Of a stretch of DNA of 64,000 nt, positions 2,293 to 62,753 are shown in pieces. How positions within the stretch are numbered: the first letter of the stretch is position 1; the number at the start of each line of letters is the position of its first letter. Made by a program: the position numbers and the translations under genes. The stretch comes from Snodgrassella gandavensis (GTDB taxonomy: Bacteria > Pseudomonadota > Gammaproteobacteria > Burkholderiales > Neisseriaceae): positions 62,001 through 126,000 of the forward strand of contig NZ_CAJZCE010000004.1 in the NCBI RefSeq assembly GCF_914768025.1, written 5' to 3'. The notes under the pieces are model-generated. The model was not told the DNA's origin, did no database searches, and saw nothing but the letters and a program-made list of their open reading frames with translations.

Positions 2293-3075
2293 ATGTCTGA
2301 ACCATCCCCGGCAACCATACCGAAACTAGTAAAGCTAACCAGCTTATTGCTGGCCGTCACTGCCCTCAGCTCATGTAGCGGCGGCTTTGAGCCATTTATT
2401 GGCGTAACCTCCGGCAAAAACAAATCCTATGCCGCCCCAGTTGAAGCACTCGTATACAACTATGAAAATATCTCTGGTGGTTCGATAAATGGCGGCTGTA
2501 TTCCGAATACACCGGGCGTGGATGATTATGAAGTGGGTAAAAAACGCTATGGCGGCGGCTCTACCTGTGGCGCTGCCTATCTGCCGGCCAAATGGAAACC
2601 GGGCATGACTGCGCGGATTTATTGGCGGGTGTTACCTTATCCTGGTTGGCATGCGAGGGGATTAAATTTACCAGGGGTTAATGTTGATGAGAATGAGCGA
2701 GCAATTATTCAGCAATATAGCGAGAATCATTCCGCAGTGATACCTTTACCCCCCCCTCCAGCATTTGCTGGCGATGATTTTGGCAAGGTAAGAAATATTA
2801 CTGTTCATTTTCTGGCGTGTAATCAGATTTTTATTGATTATGGTACCAGACAGGAAAATGCCCCTGAAGTAGTAAAAAAACAGTTTGAACTGTTTGCCAA
2901 AAGCCAGAAACTCTGTACCCCGCGCCCATCGATTAAATCCATGGCCGATTATCGGCGCAATAAAGCCAAGCTGGATGCAATAAAGAAAGAACGCGAAAAT
3001 ATTCCACAAGTAATCCTGCCTGAATATATTCAGGAGTTGCAGCAGCAGGGCAAATTCCCCGTACCCAGCAAATAA
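2293..3075 (+). CDS. DUF3304-like lipoprotein, putative Tli1-type T6SS immunity protein (copy A)
   Basis: A 260-residue exported lipoprotein with an N-terminal hydrophobic stretch and lipobox LSSC, so the lipidated Cys is residue 28. The +2 residue is Ser, which favours outer-membrane retention facing the periplasm. Conserved family features are SGKNKSYAAPVE, GGCIPN, GGGSTCGAAYLP, KWKPGMTARIYW, a proline linker PLPPPP, GDDFGKV, FLACNQ and a charged C-terminal helix beginning KSMADYRRNKAK. Four further Cys are conserved. The family, as I recognise it, is DUF3304, known as the periplasmic partner of DUF2235/Tle1 phospholipase effectors; neutralising the effector encoded at 5816 is inferred. The 3' variable patch is of the RQEN type. 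A run of eight C lies inside the gene at 2749-2756. Confidence 0.8.
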   Translation: MSEPSPATIPKLVKLTSLLLAVTALSSCSGGFEPFIGVTSGKNKSYAAPVEALVYNYENISGGSINGGCIPNTPGVDDYEVGKKRYGGGSTCGAAYLPAKWKPGMTARIYWRVLPYPGWHARGLNLPGVNVDENERAIIQQYSENHSAVIPLPPPPAFAGDDFGKVRNITVHFLACNQIFIDYGTRQENAPEVVKKQFELFAKSQKLCTPRPSIKSMADYRRNKAKLDAIKKERENIPQVILPEYIQELQQQGKFPVPSK

Positions 3076-11592: not shown

Positions 11593-12369
11593 ATGTCTGA
11601 ATCATCCTCGACAACCATCCCTAAGCTGCTTAAGCTAACCTGTTTATTGCTTGCCACTACTGCTATCAGCTCATGTAGCGGCGGCTTTGAGCCATTTGTT
11701 GGCGTTACCTCCGGTAAAAACAAATCCTATGCCGCGCCGGTAGAAGCTTTAAATTACACAGGTGATAATATTGGTGGCGGTAGTGCAAATGGCGGTTGTA
11801 TACCTAATACAGCAGGGGTAGAAGATAATGAAGTAGGTAAAAAACGCTTTGGTGGTGGTTCTACCTGTGGTGCCGCCTATTTGCCGGCTAAATGGAAGCC
11901 GGGTATGACTGCACGGATTTATTGGACGGTTTTACCTTATCCTGCTTGGCAGCCTAAAGTTTTGAATTTACCAGGGGTTAATTTTGATGAAAATGAAAGA
12001 AGTACTATTAGGCAATATAGAGAAAACCACTCAGCAGTCATACCTTTACCTCCCCCTCCAGCATTTGTTGGCGATGATTTTGGCAAGGTAGCGAATATTA
12101 CCGTCCATTTTTTGGCCTGTAATCAGCTTTACATTACTTATGGTACGGTAGAAGAGGACAAAGATACTCCCATGCATTACAAGCTGTTTGCCAAAAGCCA
12201 GAAACTCTGTACCCCGCGCCCATCGATTAAATCCATGGCCGATTACCGGCGCAATAAAGCCAAGCTGGATGCAATAAAGAAAGAACGTGAAAATATTCCG
12301 CAGGTAATCCTGCCCGAATATATTCAGGAATTGCAGCAGCAAGGCAAATTCCCCGTATCAAGCAAGTAA
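11593..12369 (+). CDS. DUF3304-like lipoprotein, putative Tli1-type immunity protein (copy E)
   Basis: A 258-residue copy with lipobox ISSC. Distinct in the first variable patch (NYTGDNIGGGSANGGCIPNTAG, where copies A-D have HGGSINGG or similar) and in the middle (AWQPKVLNLPGVNFDENERS). The 3' patch is of the VEEDKDTPMHYK type, matching the second position of the upstream cluster (copy B). The proline linker uses CCT codons, so there is no long C run. The C-terminal 60 residues are practically invariant across all copies. Confidence 0.8.
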   Translation: MSESSSTTIPKLLKLTCLLLATTAISSCSGGFEPFVGVTSGKNKSYAAPVEALNYTGDNIGGGSANGGCIPNTAGVEDNEVGKKRFGGGSTCGAAYLPAKWKPGMTARIYWTVLPYPAWQPKVLNLPGVNFDENERSTIRQYRENHSAVIPLPPPPAFVGDDFGKVANITVHFLACNQLYITYGTVEEDKDTPMHYKLFAKSQKLCTPRPSIKSMADYRRNKAKLDAIKKERENIPQVILPEYIQELQQQGKFPVSSK

Positions 12370-52326: not shown

Positions 52327-53175
52327 TTATTTCTGGTTGTCGTTCAATTCCTGCTCTAAATCGTTTTTACGCATCAGGCCGGAAATAGTCTTACCATTCG
52401 GGAATATCATGGTAGGGGTACCATTAAAGCCGAATTTGTCCCCCAGTTTCATGGTTTCAGCTACTGGATTGTTACAATCGGCTACGCTAGCAGGCTCTTT
52501 GCCATGACGCATCCAGGCAGTCCAGGCTGTGGTGCGATCTTTCTGACACCATATCTGTACTGATTTTTTCTGTGCTTTCGGGTGCAGTTCGGGTACGGGC
52601 ATGAGAAAAGTATAGACAGTAACGTTATCAATCTGGGCGATTTCTTCTTCAAGCTTTTTACAGAACGGGCAATCAGGGTCAGAAAATACGGCCATAATAC
52701 GCTGTCCGTTACCACGAACTTCCTTGATGGCTTTATCCAGTGGCAGTTGGTCAAAGTCTACTTTGGATAATTCACTTAAACGCTGTTCGGTCAGATTCTG
52801 ATGGCGTTGTAGGTCAAGTAGGTTGCCCAGCATGATGTAATCGGCATTTTCGTCGGTGTAGATAATCTGATTACCGGTAATTACAACTTCATAAATACCT
52901 TTAAATGGGGTGGTATAGATATTCTGTATGTTTAATTCCTGTCCTTTGAATGCTTTTTGCATTTTTTTTATCAGGTTTTCGCTAAGCTTTTTACTGGTGT
53001 TGGCATCAACAGTCTGGCCGATTTCAGTTGTTGCGTTACTGGAAGCGGATGCGCTGATGCCAGAAGCGGCACTGGCTGCTGAACCGGTATTGTGTACTGG
53101 TGTACCGTCGCAGGACGCGATTAAGGGTATGGTGAGCAGGGGGGCAAGCCAATGCCATAAGCAGGATTTTTTCAT
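52327..53175 (-). CDS. dsbC: DsbC-type disulfide isomerase, predicted lipoprotein
   Basis: A 282-residue protein. The thioredoxin active site is CPFC (Cys169, Cys172) in SDPDCPFCKKLEEE, and cis-Pro appears in GFNGTPTMIFPNG. The N-terminal dimerisation region (IQNIYTTPFKGIYEVVITGNQIIYTD) is typical DsbC/G. The signal sequence ends IASC, a lipobox with Cys22, and is followed by a Ser/Ala-rich linker of about 30 residues, so the mature protein is probably tethered to a membrane, unlike soluble E. coli DsbC. It isomerises wrong disulfides in the periplasm, useful here because many exported proteins in this window have several Cys. Confidence 0.92.
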   Translation of the reverse strand: MKKSCLWHWLAPLLTIPLIASCDGTPVHNTGSAASAASGISASASSNATTEIGQTVDANTSKKLSENLIKKMQKAFKGQELNIQNIYTTPFKGIYEVVITGNQIIYTDENADYIMLGNLLDLQRHQNLTEQRLSELSKVDFDQLPLDKAIKEVRGNGQRIMAVFSDPDCPFCKKLEEEIAQIDNVTVYTFLMPVPELHPKAQKKSVQIWCQKDRTTAWTAWMRHGKEPASVADCNNPVAETMKLGDKFGFNGTPTMIFPNGKTISGLMRKNDLEQELNDNQK

Positions 53176-53498
53176 ATTGAAAGGCTTTTACTTTTAGTTA
53201 ATGGTTAATGAATGATTTGAAATTATATGCTGCTATTATGCACAAGCGGTGGATTGCATGAAAAGATTTGTGTGAAAACTGTCGCTATTTTGCTGCTGGC
53301 CATTTCTGAAATCAAACGGGCTGCAATCTGTTGTGTGATAGCTGCACTGAGTGTCTATAGTTGTATAGTCTGCTTGTTAGTTGTTAAGTATAAGGCAATC
53401 AAGCTGGGTATGTAATGTTGTTTTGCTTGTGAAACGGTTGGCGTGGCAACCGGCTTCATGCCACAATACTTGTTTGTTAACTAATGTGAATACATGCC
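53176..53498. other. Intergenic between dsbC and the exonuclease gene
   Basis: 323 bases of divergent promoter region. A + frame at 53227-53415 encodes a Cys-rich hydrophobic peptide but has no ribosome binding site and is not credible. The start of the exonuclease gene has only a weak ribosome binding site. Confidence 0.5.
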
Positions 53499-54299
53499 AT
53501 GACTCCGATTTTGGCTTTCGATATTGAAACCGTTCCAGACGTAGCCGGTATTCGTGTGCTGAATCATTTGCCGGCAGAAGTAAGTGATGCAGAGGTGGTG
53601 GAATTTGCCTTGCAGCAGCGACGTGCTAAAACTGGTGGTAATGATTTTATGCAGCTGCATTTGCAGCAGGTGGTGGCCATATCATGCTGTATGCGTTGGG
53701 GTGCGGATAAAATCCATATTGGTAGTATCGGCACACCTGAAGACAGTGAAGAAACACTGATTGCGCGCTTTTTTGAGTTGATAGAAACTCATACGCCACA
53801 GCTGGTAAGCTGGAATGGTGGTGGTTTTGATTTGCCGGTATTGCATTATCGTGCTCTGATTTATGGTATCAGTGCTGCGCGTTACTGGGATATGGGGGAG
53901 GGGGATTTTGGCGACAGCCGCGATTTTAAATGGAATAATTATATCAGTCGCTATCATGCGCGCCATTGTGATTTGATGGATTTACTCTCCTTATATCAGG
54001 CACGTGCCTGTGTGCCACTGGATGACATGGCCAAGCTGTGTGGTTTCCCGGGGAAGCTGGGTATGGATGGCAGTAAGGTATGGGCGGCCTATCAGCAGGG
54101 TGAGTTGGCGCAGATTCGGCACTATTGTGAAACCGATGCTGCCAATACTTATTTAATGTATCTGCGCTTTAATCTGTTGCGCGGATTTCTGAATGCGGAT
54201 GAGTACGAGCAGGAAATCCGTTGCCTGAAAGCTTATCTGAACGGGCAACAGGCACCACACTGGCAGGAATTTCTGGCTGCATGGGGAAGCTCAAGTTGA
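53499..54299 (+). CDS. PolB-like 3'-5' exonuclease (DEDDy family)
   Basis: A 266-residue protein. Exo motif I is LAFDIETVPD (Asp8, Glu10), motif II SWNGGGFDLPVLHYRA, then HCDLMDLLS, and motif III YCETDAANTYLMY, whose Tyr four residues before Asp fits the DEDDy class. It corresponds to the stand-alone 'predicted PolB-like 3'-5' exonuclease' family. Likely a DNA or RNA processing nuclease; exact role unknown. It precedes tyrA by 58 bases on the same strand. Confidence 0.88.
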   Translation: MTPILAFDIETVPDVAGIRVLNHLPAEVSDAEVVEFALQQRRAKTGGNDFMQLHLQQVVAISCCMRWGADKIHIGSIGTPEDSEETLIARFFELIETHTPQLVSWNGGGFDLPVLHYRALIYGISAARYWDMGEGDFGDSRDFKWNNYISRYHARHCDLMDLLSLYQARACVPLDDMAKLCGFPGKLGMDGSKVWAAYQQGELAQIRHYCETDAANTYLMYLRFNLLRGFLNADEYEQEIRCLKAYLNGQQAPHWQEFLAAWGSSS

Positions 54300-54357
54300 C
54301 TATCAATGTGAAAGAACCGGGTGCCGGGATGATGGTTTGTGTGGGGTATTTGCTGAT

Positions 54358-55221
54358 ATGAGTATGCACAGGCTGGTGCTGATTGGGGTAGGCCTGATTG
54401 GTGGTTCGCTGGCACTGGATTTAAAACGTGCCGGATTGGTAGACAAGGTAGCCGGTATTGACATTGATGCAGATAATCTGACCCGGGCTGTGGAACGACA
54501 CGTAATTGACTATGCCTATACACGGATTGATGCTGAGAGTGTGGCTGATGCTGATATGGTGTTGATTGCCACGCCGGTTAATACATTACCGCTAGTCTGT
54601 CGCGAGCTGGCGCCATATCTGCCTGAACAGTGTATTGTTACCGATGTGGGCAGTACGAAGCAGCTGGCACTACAGGCTTTTGCGTCTGAGCTACCGCATC
54701 ACTATCCGCGCTGTGTTGCAGCTCATCCGATTGCCGGTTCTGACCGGCATGGTGCACTGGCGGCGCAGTTTGGCCTGTTTGTGCAGAAAAAATGCATTAT
54801 CTGTGCGCATGAACATCAGGATGAAACAGCATTGCAGGCAGTAGTGGCGATGTGGCAGGCAGTACAGGCGCAGATTTATCATCTAGATGTGGCCAGACAC
54901 GATGCGATTTTTGCAGCAGTGAGTCATTTGCCACATATGCTGGCTTATGCGTATGTTCACCAGTTGGCAGAAGCAGCGAATGCAGATGAGCTGTTGCAGT
55001 TTGCCGGTAGTGGTTTCCGTGATTTTACGCGGATTGCCGCTAGTCATCCGCAGATATGGACGGATATCTGTCTGGCCAACCGTAAGGTGCTGGCTGGTTT
55101 GTTACAGCAGCAACAGCAGGAGCTGGTGTATTTGCAGCAATGTTTGCAACAGGGTGATGCGCAGAAATTGACTGCTTTTTTTGCCAAAGCACAGAAAATA
55201 CGCGAAGGCTGGCAGAATTAG
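54358..55221 (+). CDS. tyrA: Prephenate dehydrogenase
   Basis: Start at ATG 54358 (MSMHRLVLIGVGLIGGSLAL); upstream TTG 54337 is in frame but lacks support. 287 residues. The Rossmann motif GVGLIGGS, DVGSTK, CVAAHPIAGSDRHG and the C-terminal helical dimerisation domain with ISHLPH-like VSHLPHMLA and GFRDFTRIAASHPQIWTDI are standard for bacterial TyrA. It makes 4-hydroxyphenylpyruvate for tyrosine synthesis. No ACT or chorismate mutase domain is fused. Confidence 0.95.
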   Translation: MSMHRLVLIGVGLIGGSLALDLKRAGLVDKVAGIDIDADNLTRAVERHVIDYAYTRIDAESVADADMVLIATPVNTLPLVCRELAPYLPEQCIVTDVGSTKQLALQAFASELPHHYPRCVAAHPIAGSDRHGALAAQFGLFVQKKCIICAHEHQDETALQAVVAMWQAVQAQIYHLDVARHDAIFAAVSHLPHMLAYAYVHQLAEAANADELLQFAGSGFRDFTRIAASHPQIWTDICLANRKVLAGLLQQQQQELVYLQQCLQQGDAQKLTAFFAKAQKIREGWQN

Positions 55222-55397
55222 AAAAAAAAGCACTGTAAGGGGTAATTGTGGCAGATAAAGACATTATTCTAGCTAAGTTGTGGTTGAATAAAGTATTTTT
55301 TGGTGTTTTTGACTGCGCCAGATAGATGCAGTTAATCAAATTTGCGGCATTTTTAATTAAAATGACTCTATTTTATCGAATTAATACAAAATATGAC

Positions 55398-55426
55398 TTG
55401 CCATGCATGCGTATTTGATGCATAAT
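55398..55426 (+). promoter_or_regulatory. Sigma70 promoter of a candidate small RNA
   Basis: TTGCCA (55398-55403), exactly 17 bases of spacer, CATAAT (55421-55426). The expected start, seven or eight bases on, coincides with the first base of a 10-bp hairpin (55434). Confidence 0.7.
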
Positions 55427-55433
55427 TCGCTTC

Positions 55434-55522
55434 GTTAAATCAGCTCCTAGTTGGTTTAACAGTTTCTCCTCTATTTCTCCTTTGTAGACTTGGCGCACAC
55501 TTAACCGTGTGCGCATTTTTTT
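55434..55522 (+). ncRNA. Candidate trans-acting small RNA with CUCC anti-Shine-Dalgarno motifs
   Basis: About 89 bases between tyrA and an ACT-domain gene. The 5' hairpin pairs GTTAAATCAG (55434-55443) with TTGGTTTAAC (55451-55460), with loop CTCCTAG. A single-stranded pyrimidine-rich stretch follows (55461-55492) with TTTCTCCTC and TTTCTCCTT. The 3' end is a perfect 8-bp terminator, GCGCACAC / GTGTGCGC (55493-55514), plus seven Ts. It has its own promoter and no start codon. The architecture recalls Hfq-dependent Neisseria sibling RNAs with C/U-rich seeds; the relationship is inference. Confidence 0.7.
55493..55522 (+). terminator. Intrinsic terminator of the candidate small RNA
   Basis: A perfect 8-bp GC-rich stem (GCGCACAC / GTGTGCGC), loop TTAACC, then ATTTTTTT. 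It lies 270 bases beyond tyrA and has no other gene to terminate. Confidence 0.9.
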
Positions 55523-55744
55523 ATCTATTTTTCTTTATGCTTATGGAATATATGACTGGTTATGCCCGATTGCAGTATCTCTGCCTATATATGTGTCATC
55601 TGAAAATGTTGCTTTAGCTGATTGTTGCTCATGTGTATCAGAATATTTGTCACTTTGTCGATGCGGTGACTGGTTGGATAGTGCTATTGTCTGAACATAA
55701 ATACTGCTAGGATAAATGTTTTATATTTTGAACAGGAAATGACG

Positions 55745-56137
55745 ATGTCTGGTGAACAGAATCTGCGAATTCTGCTGCAATCAGCTGCGCCGCAGCATAA
55801 TCCGGGGAAATATGTGTTCTGTACTGTGCAGCAGCCTGAACCGGCATTGTTGACTGCTGCTGTGGCTACTATGCAGGAGAGTGAGGGCACTACGCTGATT
55901 CTGCCACAGGCTGTGGCTGATGCACAGCAACTGGGCTATGAATATATTGCTGGCTGGATTACTTTGAAAGTGCATTCTTCTCTGGCGGCAGTAGGGTTAA
56001 CCGCAGCGTTTTCGCGTGCACTGGCGCAGCAGAATATTAGCTGTAATGTGGTAGCTGGCTATTATCATGACCATATTTTTGTGGCTGATAATGATGTGCC
56101 GCAGGCTTTGCTCATTCTGAACAGTTTGGGTGAATAA
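55745..56137 (+). CDS. ACT-domain protein (COG3602/DUF2241 type)
   Basis: I choose ATG 55745 because AGGA lies eight bases upstream; ATG 55739 is too close to it. About 130 residues. The C-terminal half (WITLKVHSSLAAVGLTAAFSRALAQQNISCNVVAGYYHDHIFV) is the typical ACT-like domain of this family, with the conserved YHDH turn; the N-terminal half (GKYVFCTVQQPE) belongs to the same family. Likely an amino-acid-binding regulator; ligand unknown. Monocistronic by appearance. Confidence 0.82.
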   Translation: MSGEQNLRILLQSAAPQHNPGKYVFCTVQQPEPALLTAAVATMQESEGTTLILPQAVADAQQLGYEYIAGWITLKVHSSLAAVGLTAAFSRALAQQNISCNVVAGYYHDHIFVADNDVPQALLILNSLGE

Positions 56138-56519
56138 TTGTGGTCGGATAATGGGAATTTGGCTGGCTGATAGTAAAGCTGAATAATTGGCGGAAATGAT
56201 GAATGTACAAATGTACAGATGATGCAATATCAAACTCCCTATACAAAAGAGATTGGTGATTTATTGCATGTTGTAGTTCATGTCATTGATGCTGATATTT
56301 ACATGTAAGGCTAGCAGGAAGTATGGTGCTCTACATCTGCTAATCACCAATATGTAGCTGAATGATTGCACTGCATAAATCAGTGGATGGTTATGTTAAA
56401 TGGCAGTTTGACAGGGTTTATCAAACCGATTTTAAAGCACTGAAAAATTGTTCCTGTGTCCTTATGTTTATTATTAAGTCAGACGTTGAGATGATGCAGC
56501 AAGGTAAGTTATTGCCGGA

Positions 56520-56779
56520 AGTAAATTAGGTTGCTGTTGTGCGGTACTCATACTGGTTGCTGGCATGACCGGCATTGCATGGTTAGGATGTGCTTAGGCG
56601 TTATCCACTGATTGAAACTGCTAGCTATAAACAGCAGCAGTTGTCTTTCCAATAGATTACTGTAGCCGAAAACAGGGCATTCACCACAGTTGATACAGTT
56701 AATCAGGGTGCGGGCTTACGGCTGGTTGCCAGAAGAGTAGATTCAGGCTCAATTGACCAGTACTTAATACAGCCGGCAT
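56520..56779 (+). pseudogene. Remnant of an unidentified membrane/exported protein gene
   Basis: Stop-interrupted pieces in consistent order: a transmembrane helix (AVLILVAGMTGIAWLGCA) near 56538-56590, then RYPLIETASYKQQQLSFQ and, after a stop, TVAENRAFTTVDTVNQGAGLR and further open sequence running up to the lrp gene. The pieces look like real protein but contain at least two stops and a frame change, and no start. I do not recognise the family. The preceding 56138-56519 shows nothing. Confidence 0.4.
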
Positions 56780-57244
56780 TTATTCCAGATGTAACATCTG
56801 TTCTTCTTTTACTTCTTCCATAACAACATAACTGCGGCTTTCGGCTGCGGCTGGTAGTTGCAACAGGATATTGCCTAGCAGGTTGCGATATGCATGCATA
56901 TTGGGCAGGCGTACTTTAATTAGGTAATCGTATTCGCCGGAAATCAGGTGACATTCCAGTACTTGCGGAATGGTCAGTACTTCACGGCGGAAATCTTCAA
57001 AAATATTGCCGGATTTGGAACGCAGTTTGATTTCCACAAACACCAGCAAGCTCTGGTTTAAGGCGCGTGGGTTCAGGCGTGCGTGGTAGCCGGTAATGAT
57101 GTTTTCTCGTTCCAGTCGCCGTACGCGTTCGGTGACGGGAGTAGTGGACAACCCTACCTTGTCAGCCAGTTCGGTCATGGTGGTACGGGCGTTTTTTTGT
57201 AGTAAGGACAATATCTTCATGTCCACTTTGTCAATATGGTGCAT
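56780..57244 (-). CDS. lrp: Lrp/AsnC-family regulator, probable regulator of dadA
   Basis: A 154-residue Lrp protein: DKVDMKILSLLQKNARTTMTELADKVGLSTTPVTERVRRLERENIITGY is the winged helix-turn-helix, followed by the RAM ligand-binding domain (VFVEIKL, VLECHLISGEYDYLIKVRLPNM). It is divergent from dadA with a 178-base shared region containing the palindrome GTGAAATTCAC. In many Proteobacteria Lrp-type proteins control dadAX in response to alanine or leucine, so local control of dadA-orf-alr is the likely role. Confidence 0.93.
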   Translation of the reverse strand: MHHIDKVDMKILSLLQKNARTTMTELADKVGLSTTPVTERVRRLERENIITGYHARLNPRALNQSLLVFVEIKLRSKSGNIFEDFRREVLTIPQVLECHLISGEYDYLIKVRLPNMHAYRNLLGNILLQLPAAAESRSYVVMEEVKEEQMLHLE

Positions 57245-57307
57245 GGTTTATCTATGATATAAATGTGATAATTTGTCAAAATACTCCTTTTTTTGGTTTA
57301 AATAAAG

Positions 57308-57318
57308 TGAAATTCACT
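57308..57318. promoter_or_regulatory. Palindrome in the lrp-dadA intergenic region, candidate Lrp operator
   Basis: GTGAAATTCAC is a perfect 11-base inverted repeat within AT-rich DNA 104 bases before the dadA start; its arms and flanks resemble the loose palindromic Lrp consensus. Single-site prediction only. Confidence 0.4.
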
Positions 57319-57422
57319 ATCATTCTTTGTTTACACTATGAAAAGTAACTAAATGGGCTGTTTGAGGATTATACAATTGAACGGCTGAGCTTATTCCGTT
57401 TGATTACTAAGGAGACGAGGGA

Positions 57423-58679
57423 ATGAAAGTATTGATTATGGGGGCAGGTATTGTTGGGGTGAGTACTGCCTGGTATCTGGCTAAAGCCGGACATGAAGTT
57501 ACTGTGCTGGAGCGTGCTGATCAGGCCGCGATGGAAACCAGTTTTGCCAATGCCGGCCAGTTATCCTATGGCTATACCACCCCATGGGCAGCACCGAATA
57601 TACCGGCTAAGGTATGGAAATGGCTGTTCAGGGAGCATTCTCCTTTACTGATTCGCCCTGATGGCAGCCTTTCTCAATTGCAATGGCTGTGGCAGATGTA
57701 TCGCAATTGTAATGCACAGAGCTATGCAACTAATAAAGAACGCATGGTACGTATTTCTGAGTATAGCCGTGAGATGTTGCAGCAGCTGGAGGCAGAAGAA
57801 AATATTCAGTATGAAGGGCGCAGGCAGGGTACTTTGCAGATTTTCCGCACGGAAAAAGAGGTGATCGACTCCCGTTCTGATATAGCTGTTTTGCAGGAAT
57901 TCGGGGTGCCGTTGCAGGTACTCAATAGTGTTGCTGAATGTACGCAGTATGAACCGGCGCTGGCGCATATGGCCGGAAAGCTGGCCGGTGCATTGTATTT
58001 GCCTCAGGATGGTACGGGCGACTGTCATTTATTTACTACTCAGTTGGCCGAAAAATGTGCGGCTTTGGGCGTGAAATTTTTATACCGGCATGCTATTTCG
58101 GCCATCCATCAGGATAAATGCTCGATTAAAGGCGTGCAGGCTAATGGCCAGTGGTTTACTGCCGACCATTATGTCTGTGCGTTAGGTAGTTTCAGCCGCA
58201 ATATGCTGAGCAAGCTGGGGATTAATCTGCCGGTTTATCCGGTGAAGGGATATTCACTGACTATCCCGATAATTGATCAGGATAAAGCACCGGTTTCTAC
58301 GATTATTGATGAAACTTATAAGGTGGCGATAACACGTTTTGATGAACGCATCCGAGCTGGTGGCATGGCTGAACTGTCTGGTTATCGTATTCACCTGAAC
58401 CCGAAACGCAAGGCGACGCTGGACTTAGTGGTTAATGATCTGTTTCCGGGCAGTTGCCATACTTCTGAGGCTTTTTTCTGGAGTGGTCTGCGCCCGATGA
58501 CACCGGACAGTACGCCGATTATTGGTGCCAGCCGTTTTGTGAACCTGTCGTTGAATACTGGCCACGGTACGCTGGGCTGGACGATGGGGCTGGGTTCGGG
58601 AAAAATTCTGGCAGATTTAATTAGTGGGGTTAAGCCGGAAATTGAAACCAGTGATTTATCGTTGGCGCGTTATGTTTAA
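57423..58679 (+). CDS. dadA: D-amino acid dehydrogenase small subunit
   Basis: A 418-residue FAD enzyme with AAGGAG before ATG. N-terminal [25 protein letters not shown] is the dinucleotide-binding motif; [14 protein letters not shown] and the C-terminal [15 protein letters not shown] and [16 protein letters not shown] are DadA hallmarks. It oxidises D-alanine to pyruvate and ammonia at the inner membrane. With alr downstream it completes L-alanine catabolism via racemisation, under likely Lrp control from the divergent gene. Confidence 0.95.
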
Positions 58680-61754: not shown

Positions 61755-62753
61755 ATGAGTCTTGTAAGCCAGAAACATTTTTTAAAGCTGCTGGACTATA
61801 CACCAACAGAAATCCAGACGTTGCTGGATTTAGCCGCCAGACTGAAAACCGAGAAGAAAACCGGTGCAGAGCAGCCACGTCTGACGGGTAAAAATATTGC
61901 TCTTATTTTTGAAAAAACTTCTACTCGTACCCGTTGTGCCTTTGAAGTGGCCGCACATGATCAGGGTGCGCATGTAACTTATCTGGATAGCAGTGGCAGC
62001 CAGATAGGCCATAAGGAAAGTATTCGCGATACCGCAAGGGTTCTCGGACGCATGTATGACGCCATTGAGTATCGTGGTTTTGGTCAGGAGATTGTTGAGC
62101 AACTGGCCGAATATGCGGGAGTTCCGGTAATTAATGGGTTAACCAATGAATACCATCCTACGCAAATGCTGGCTGATTTGCTTACTATGAAGGAAAACAG
62201 CAGGAAACCTTTAAACCGGATTACCTATGCTTATGTAGGCGATGCCCGCTACAACATGGGTAATTCTTTGCTGGTGGCCGGTGCTCAAATGGGTATGGAT
62301 GTACGTATTAGTGCCCCACGCGCTTTTTGGCCGGATGATAATCTGGTGGCACAGTGTCGCGAGATTGCGGCGCAGACAGGTGCGCGGATTACCTTAACAG
62401 AAGATGCAGCCGCCGCAGTTAATGAAGCTGATTTTATCCATACCGATGTCTGGGTATCGATGGGAGAGGCGAAAGAAATCTGGAAAGAACGTATTGAGCA
62501 GCTCACACCGTATCGGGTCGATGCCCGGCTGCTTGCAGCCAGCCACAATCCTGAGGTGAAATTCATGCACTGCCTGCCAGCGATTCATAATCGTGATACT
62601 CAGCTAGGGCAATGGCTGTTCGATGAATTTGCTCTGGATGGTGCGGAAGTGAGTGATGATGTATTTGAAAGTACCGCTTCTATAGTATTTGAGCAGGCGG
62701 AAAACCGGATGCATACGATTAAAGCCGTACTGGTGGCGTTACTAAACACCTGA
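61755..62753 (+). CDS. argF: Ornithine carbamoyltransferase
   Basis: ATG 61755 follows AAGGAG and gives 332 residues (an upstream in-frame start at 61692 would overlap dapE). Carbamoyl phosphate binding [13 protein letters not shown], the HPTQMLADL motif, and ornithine-binding HCLPAIHN are all present, with [13 protein letters not shown] typical of OTC. It makes citrulline for arginine synthesis. It is the second gene of dapE-argF, 35 bases ahead of a drug-exporter gene. Confidence 0.96.

Follow-up and report, generated by a model that had tools for sequence, protein, structure and literature searches.

A single-copy NmsRb-family small RNA gene in Snodgrassella gandavensis

The locus and the predicted RNA

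Snodgrassella is a bee-gut genus. We analysed a stretch of 64,000 nucleotides of Snodgrassella gandavensis (contig NZ_CAJZCE010000004.1, positions 62,001 to 126,000 of the forward strand), here called the window, from a genome of 2.5 Mb in 45 contigs. An NmsRb-family sRNA lies on the plus strand at 55432..55522, where positions 55432-55520 matched Rfam RF02877 over the full length of the model (1-91 of 91) with 87.6 bits at a gathering score of 52. This was the sole Rfam match above threshold in the window, and RF02877 was found once in the genome. Upstream of the sRNA are exo, for a PolB-type exonuclease, and tyrA, for prephenate dehydrogenase (54337..55221, plus strand), which precedes the sRNA in all 12 genus stretches examined. 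Downstream follow an ACT-domain ORF, the lrp/asnC-type regulator gene lrp on the opposite strand (56780..57244, minus strand) and dadA. According to PMC5362039, lrp is a neighbour of NmsR in Neisseria too. In the genus stretches of about 4 kb, lrp was reached in 6 of 12 and dadA in 3 of 12. The ACT-domain ORF (55739-56137), which separates the sRNA from lrp here, varies within the genus; it was not seen in G003, G010, G011 and G012.

The putative promoter consists of a -35 hexamer TTGCCA (55398..55403, plus strand) and a -10 hexamer CATAAT (55421..55426, plus strand), as the preliminary description of the locus had read it. Among the 11 single-copy genus genomes, the window genome included, the distance between the two was always 17 nt and the -10 hexamer was always CATAAT, and the -35 hexamer was TTGCCA in 7, TTGCTA in 3 and TTGGCA in 1. 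The -10 box was followed by TCGCTTCGT in 11/11, with nine identical bases past the box. In a promoter scan of positions 53000-58000, TTGCCA-17-CATAAT (55398-55426) scored 10 of 12 and ranked top of 11 promoter-like sites. Since shuffles of this region yielded 10.7 such sites, the motif alone is no evidence and the scan was discarded as such; it is the conservation in the 11 single-copy genomes that supports the predicted promoter.

The RNA is predicted to span 55434-55522, with ends that we infer. Folding of these 89 nt gave -29.3 kcal/mol with a z of -6.96, and none of 200 shuffles was equally stable. The predicted plan is a stem-loop 1, an open anti-Shine-Dalgarno stretch, a stem-loop 2 with the second motif in its loop, and a terminator. 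Stem-loop 1 (55434..55460, plus strand) has 12 pairs, which are kept by compensatory changes. A 5' hairpin had been proposed earlier with 10 bp; the hairpin is predicted here too, and because its 12 pairs leave a loop of only 3 nt (CCU), most of the supposedly exposed CTCCTAG is base-paired in the fold model. The putative anti-Shine-Dalgarno 1, TTTCTCCT, lies between stem-loops 1 and 2 (55463..55470, plus strand) and is assigned by homology to alpha-SD1 of NmsRA. Stem-loop 2 (55470..55488, plus strand) was folded with 5 pairs and a 9-nt loop that holds most of the putative anti-Shine-Dalgarno 2 (TTTCTCCTT, 55474-55482), the homologue of alpha-SD2. This second motif had been taken for a plain single strand, and the stem-loop that carries it had been overlooked. 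Stem-loop 3 (55493..55522, plus strand) is an intrinsic terminator with a U tail, as judged from the fold and from covariation; its stem has 8 pairs and runs into one A and seven T. A terminator had already been noted in the preliminary description.

The full name of RF02877 is 'Neisseria metabolic switch regulator b (RcoF1/NgncR163)'. The NmsR family consists of sRNAs that occlude the ribosome-binding sites of metabolic genes in Neisseria and so turn these genes down. The window RNA scores above the gathering score of NmsRb and has three stem-loops with a short stem-loop 2 and two anti-Shine-Dalgarno motifs, whose position and spacing match the description given in PMC5362039. The likeness to Hfq-dependent sibling RNAs of Neisseria, which had been noted before, is therefore literal, since the locus belongs to this family. 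Contrary to the earlier claim, the sRNA is not new in kind: the family is in Rfam, and work on it has been done in N. meningitidis (PMC5362039) and N. gonorrhoeae (PMC9973317). Matches to a ylbH leader (minus strand) and to suhB/mmgR were rejected with scores far under their gathering scores. With a probability of about 0.9, we take the locus to be a single-copy NmsRb-family sRNA gene with its own sigma-70-type promoter and terminator, giving an RNA of about 89 nt that represses by pairing to Shine-Dalgarno regions.

Conservation and copy number

The preliminary description had made its case partly dependent on conservation in relatives; the -10 box, the anti-Shine-Dalgarno core and stem-loop 2 are unchanged in the 11 single-copy genomes of the genus. 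The distribution was surveyed in 199 genomes (own, genus, family and order) and 14 control genomes. With filters that can lose weak matches, RF02877 was found at E<=1e-3 in 92 of the 199 genomes, 77 above the cut-off, and in none of the 14 controls. The covariance search that had been proposed earlier gave, besides the 87.6 bits in the window, matches at the same E-value in 74 of the 83 genomes of family f1 and in 13 of the 14 of the genus, both counted by hand. The genus genome that had no match, G007, is 60% complete.

A core of 22 nt was present in 53 of 53 fetched copies and a core of 26 nt in 49 of them. A search of the named genome collection gave the exact 22-nt core in 92 stretches, with the taxa Neisseria, Snodgrassella, Eikenella, Alysiella, Stenoxybacter, Conchiformibius, Chromobacterium, Vogesella, Aquitalea, Paludibacterium, Pseudogulbenkiania, Crenobacter, Craterilacuibacter, Laribacter, Aquaspirillum and 'Neisseriaceae bacterium', and with two further titles, Xenophilus sp. 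AP218F and Beta proteobacterium L13. The core thus extends far beyond Neisseria. Two of the three CUCC motifs that had been proposed as seeds lie inside the 22-nt core and are present in all 53 copies. The CUCC of hairpin 1 is not conserved and was dropped as a third seed: 3 of the 11 single-copy genomes do not have it, and neither does any of the 4 copies in G011 and G012.

Stems 1 and 3 vary in sequence with their pairs kept, and 13 of 22 pairs were changed on both sides in the alignment of 49 copies (A2). On the 43 distinct aligned copies, standard pairs made up 92.4% of the pair cells, compared with 25.5-49.9% for slid structures, and 101 pair cells were changed on both sides, where shuffles gave 34 on average. 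Because stem 2 is invariant, covariation says nothing about it.

The family is typically found as two siblings, a trait that does not define NmsRb. Only one copy was found in the window genome, so the RNA is not a sibling here. A decayed second copy was sought with the 22-nt core at <=3 mismatches; none was found in the window and none in the genome, and this candidate was rejected. A single copy was present in 11 of 14 genus genomes, and two copies only in G011 and G012, both with the order tyrA-NmsR-NmsR-lrp. The next gene in G012 is dadA; in G011 dadA was not seen beside lrp. A genome that presumably belongs to Eikenella (G025) has the order exo-tyrA-NmsR-NmsR. In genus g10, Neisseria by its titles, at least two matches were counted by hand in 36 of 44 matching genomes and one in 8, and two further genomes had none. 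The protein tree of exo and tyrA, midpoint-rooted for drawing only, set G012, G025 and G015 apart from the rest, which formed an unresolved three-way fork of G011, the group of G001, G004 and G005, and a core of eight genomes. The simplest reading is an ancestral tandem pair whose lrp-side copy was lost once or twice, where the side is judged by position only. One of two ancestral tandem siblings would then have been lost in the lineage of the window genome.

The siblings themselves were compared in 39 pairs from 33 genomes (e.g. L041, L042, L045/L046 and L052). Some genomes share the terminator half between siblings that differ in stem-loop 1. This half was identical in 8 of the 39 pairs, in G015 even at a distance of about 11 kb, whereas many pairs of Neisseria differ in both halves. 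The mean distance of the 3' part was 0.39 within a genome versus 0.50 between genomes, a value that none of 2000 label shuffles reached, and that of the 5' part was 0.97 within versus 0.86 between. The pattern may reflect gene conversion affecting the 3' half, or repeated duplication in which the 5' half was replaced.

Family membership, the predicted fold, covariation, the conservation of the core, of the promoter and of the upstream gene order, the finding of one copy and an hfq gene encoded in the window genome are directly supported.

Targets in Snodgrassella

Targets were evaluated by the pairing energy of start regions, ranked against a background and ignoring mRNA folding. The classical targets covered were gltA, prpC, sucC and sdhC. 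For a control, the Neisseria genes were ranked against 73 start regions, many of them from orthologous loci; prpC was in the best 3% in 3 of 3 cases and gltA in the best 3-11% in 6 of 6 genomes of g10, and a seventh gltA, from genus g6, was at 29%.

In the genus, citrate synthase was matched in 10 of 14 genomes and the Sdh cytochrome genes in the same 10. Neither citrate synthase (gltA) nor the Sdh cytochrome genes were found in G001, G004 and G005, which are 94, 86 and 96% complete and keep the RNA core; this branch may therefore have lost the TCA cycle. The sucC gene was above the cut-off in one of 14 genomes, G012, and G011 had a single weak match that stayed under it. An intact prpC was not observed in any of the 14 genomes. 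A second citrate synthase, perhaps prpC, was observed only in G012 (C1:11632-12650); it is split over two reading frames, which may reflect either a broken gene or an error in the sequence.

The Snodgrassella genes were ranked against the 49 ORFs of the window, whose starts were set automatically and are certainly wrong in some cases. On this scale gltA ranked at 0.16-0.57, which is background level, in all 10 genus genomes that have it, and was rejected as a conserved target. The rank of sdhC was 0.39-0.63 in 8 of 10 genomes and 0.04 in G012; the starts scored for G006 (L183) did not include the true one. With sucC not found in most of the genus, no intact prpC observed, and gltA and in most genomes sdhC ranking no better than the background, the regulon has probably shifted away from gltA, sucC and prpC, and the function described in Neisseria is not simply transferable to Snodgrassella.

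These same losses would fit a decaying relic of the sibling pair, a functionless transcript or a mere terminator after tyrA, and one sibling is indeed missing. Against this, the core, stem-loop 2 and the -10 box were invariant in 11 of 11 single-copy genomes, G001, G004 and G005 included, whereas the spacer of the promoter and the loops drift. This points to selection on the part that pairs with mRNA and makes a relic very unlikely.

It had been suggested that the RNA masks AAGGAG leaders, and AAGGAG is indeed present before dadA, argF and the immunity-like genes. For argF and dadA, masking by the sRNA is plausible; the immunity-like genes paired at background. The proposed target prediction on such leaders placed argF, for ornithine carbamoyltransferase (61755..62753, plus strand), first, with the strongest predicted pairing of the 49 window genes, yet not beyond chance: its value was reached by 4 of 1000 seeds with shuffled flanks, and as the best of 49 genes by 48 of 200 trials. 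In the core genomes argF ranked at 0.00-0.06 in 7 of 8, the start in G013 lying outside the count. Elsewhere the rank was 0.04 in G011, 0.08 in G005, 0.29 in G004 and 0.65 in G012; in G001 the best match, at 65% identity perhaps another gene copy, ranked at 0.82. Part of the conservation of the argF leader is coding, since it overlaps the end of the upstream dapE.

The candidate dadA, for D-amino acid dehydrogenase (57423..58679, plus strand), has an ortholog that PMC9973317 reports as validated in the gonococcus. It ranked at 0.08 in the window and, over 12 genomes, at 0.06-0.08 in four, 0.18-0.29 in seven and 0.69 in G004, leaving out G011 with a match of only 38%. A third candidate is scpC, for succinyl-CoA:acetate CoA-transferase (TIGR03458, NF053853), present in 13 of 14 genus genomes, partially in G007. 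It was not found in G012, the sole genus genome with sucC above the cut-off. The observation that sucC and succinyl-CoA:acetate CoA-transferase replace each other was made across genus g1. The Shine-Dalgarno region of scpC is AAGGAGAAA in 8 of 8 core Snodgrassella, a nine-base complement to the stem-loop 2 motif; despite this match its pairing energy ranked only at 0.16-0.29 in the core genomes. Genome-wide, AAGGAGAAA had 24 sites, one of them the sRNA itself, and the reversed control 17, so it is not strikingly enriched. We regard argF, dadA and scpC as candidate targets only.

Several repeated ORFs of about 258-262 amino acids (2293-3075, 11593-12369 and similar ones up to 16149 in the window) have a common AAGGAGCAACC leader. 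The two that were scanned resemble the Tli1a immunity family with E-values of 1.6e-13 and 1e-16, both under the curated cut-off.

Related systems and proposed mechanism

The window RNA resembles NmsRB/NmsRA of N. meningitidis and NgncR_163/NgncR_162 of N. gonorrhoeae in the whole-length covariance match, the three stem-loops, the two anti-Shine-Dalgarno motifs 11 nt apart, the sigma-70-type promoter and the nearby lrp. It differs from them in the sequence of stem-loop 1 and in being found as one copy instead of two tandem siblings. Its setting is the interval between tyrA and lrp, and theirs is that between dsbB and lrp. A further difference is that the window genome has no detected sucC or second citrate synthase (prpC), and pairing to gltA and sdhC is at background.

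CU-rich stretches, repeated CUCC motifs and a strong terminator are also features of the Burkholderia double-hairpin RNAs, the Betaproteobacteria toxic small RNA family RF02278, to which the sRNA might instead be assigned. A permissive search of 55300-55700 gave an RF02278 match at 55463-55522 with 39.7 bits, and PMC5688073 notes a structural likeness of these RNAs to the NmsRs. The name of RF02278 refers to an inhibition of growth in E. coli, and plasmids with both nmsR genes or nmsRB alone could not be introduced into E. coli according to PMC5362039. The score, however, is below the gathering score of 50 of that family, compared with 87.6 bits for NmsRb. The match leaves out stem-loop 1, and three pairs of the first hairpin of RF02278 are unformed. 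PMC5688073 describes dispersed copies in Burkholderia, in contrast to the single window RNA. Membership in RF02278 is thus extremely improbable. That the RNA is a cis-acting leader or attenuator of the ACT-domain ORF, which starts 217 nt downstream on the same strand, is scarcely credible, since a strong terminator ends the RNA and the sRNA is kept in G003, G010, G011 and G012, in which the interval from NmsR to lrp showed no ACT ORF.

For the NmsRb-family RNA, we infer transcription, Hfq binding, translational repression and stringent-response control from Neisseria. The RNA would be made from its own sigma-70-type promoter, end at its own terminator after about 89 nt and most likely bind Hfq, as the siblings of N. 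gonorrhoeae are reported to do (PMC9973317). Two segments would do the pairing, UUUCUCCU in the open stretch past stem-loop 1 and UUUCUCCUU, which covers the loop of stem-loop 2 and bases next to it. Their partners would be the Shine-Dalgarno regions of several mRNAs, where ribosome entry would be blocked. Leaders with AGGAGAAA would be the expected responders, through the two UCC motifs of the RNA. These motifs are 11 nt apart, like the NmsRA motifs at 32-34 and 43-45 that were mutated in PMC5362039. In that work on N. meningitidis, mutating either alpha-SD abolished target repression, and GltA depended on alpha-SD2 only. In N. gonorrhoeae, NgncR_162 lowered dadA-gfp by 60% (PMC9973317).

The identity of the RNA is in itself unsurprising; what makes it modestly interesting is that one copy stands alone and that its set of targets has probably changed. 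In the literature found, the NmsR pair has so far been studied only in the two pathogenic Neisseria; among the matches listed in searches that covered Snodgrassella and Chromobacterium, none dealt by title or abstract with NmsR outside Neisseria. The single Snodgrassella NmsR may have been re-wired, with the seed fixed and the targets changed, scpC standing in for sucC, and argF and dadA for gltA and prpC; we consider this speculative and rather unlikely. If true, the three genomes that keep the RNA core with no detectable gltA and sdhC would present an sRNA that outlives its classical regulon. In conclusion, this harmless symbiont of the bee gut, with its lone ortholog and its reduced TCA cycle, would make it possible to study the function of the conserved seed apart from sibling redundancy and from the classical targets.
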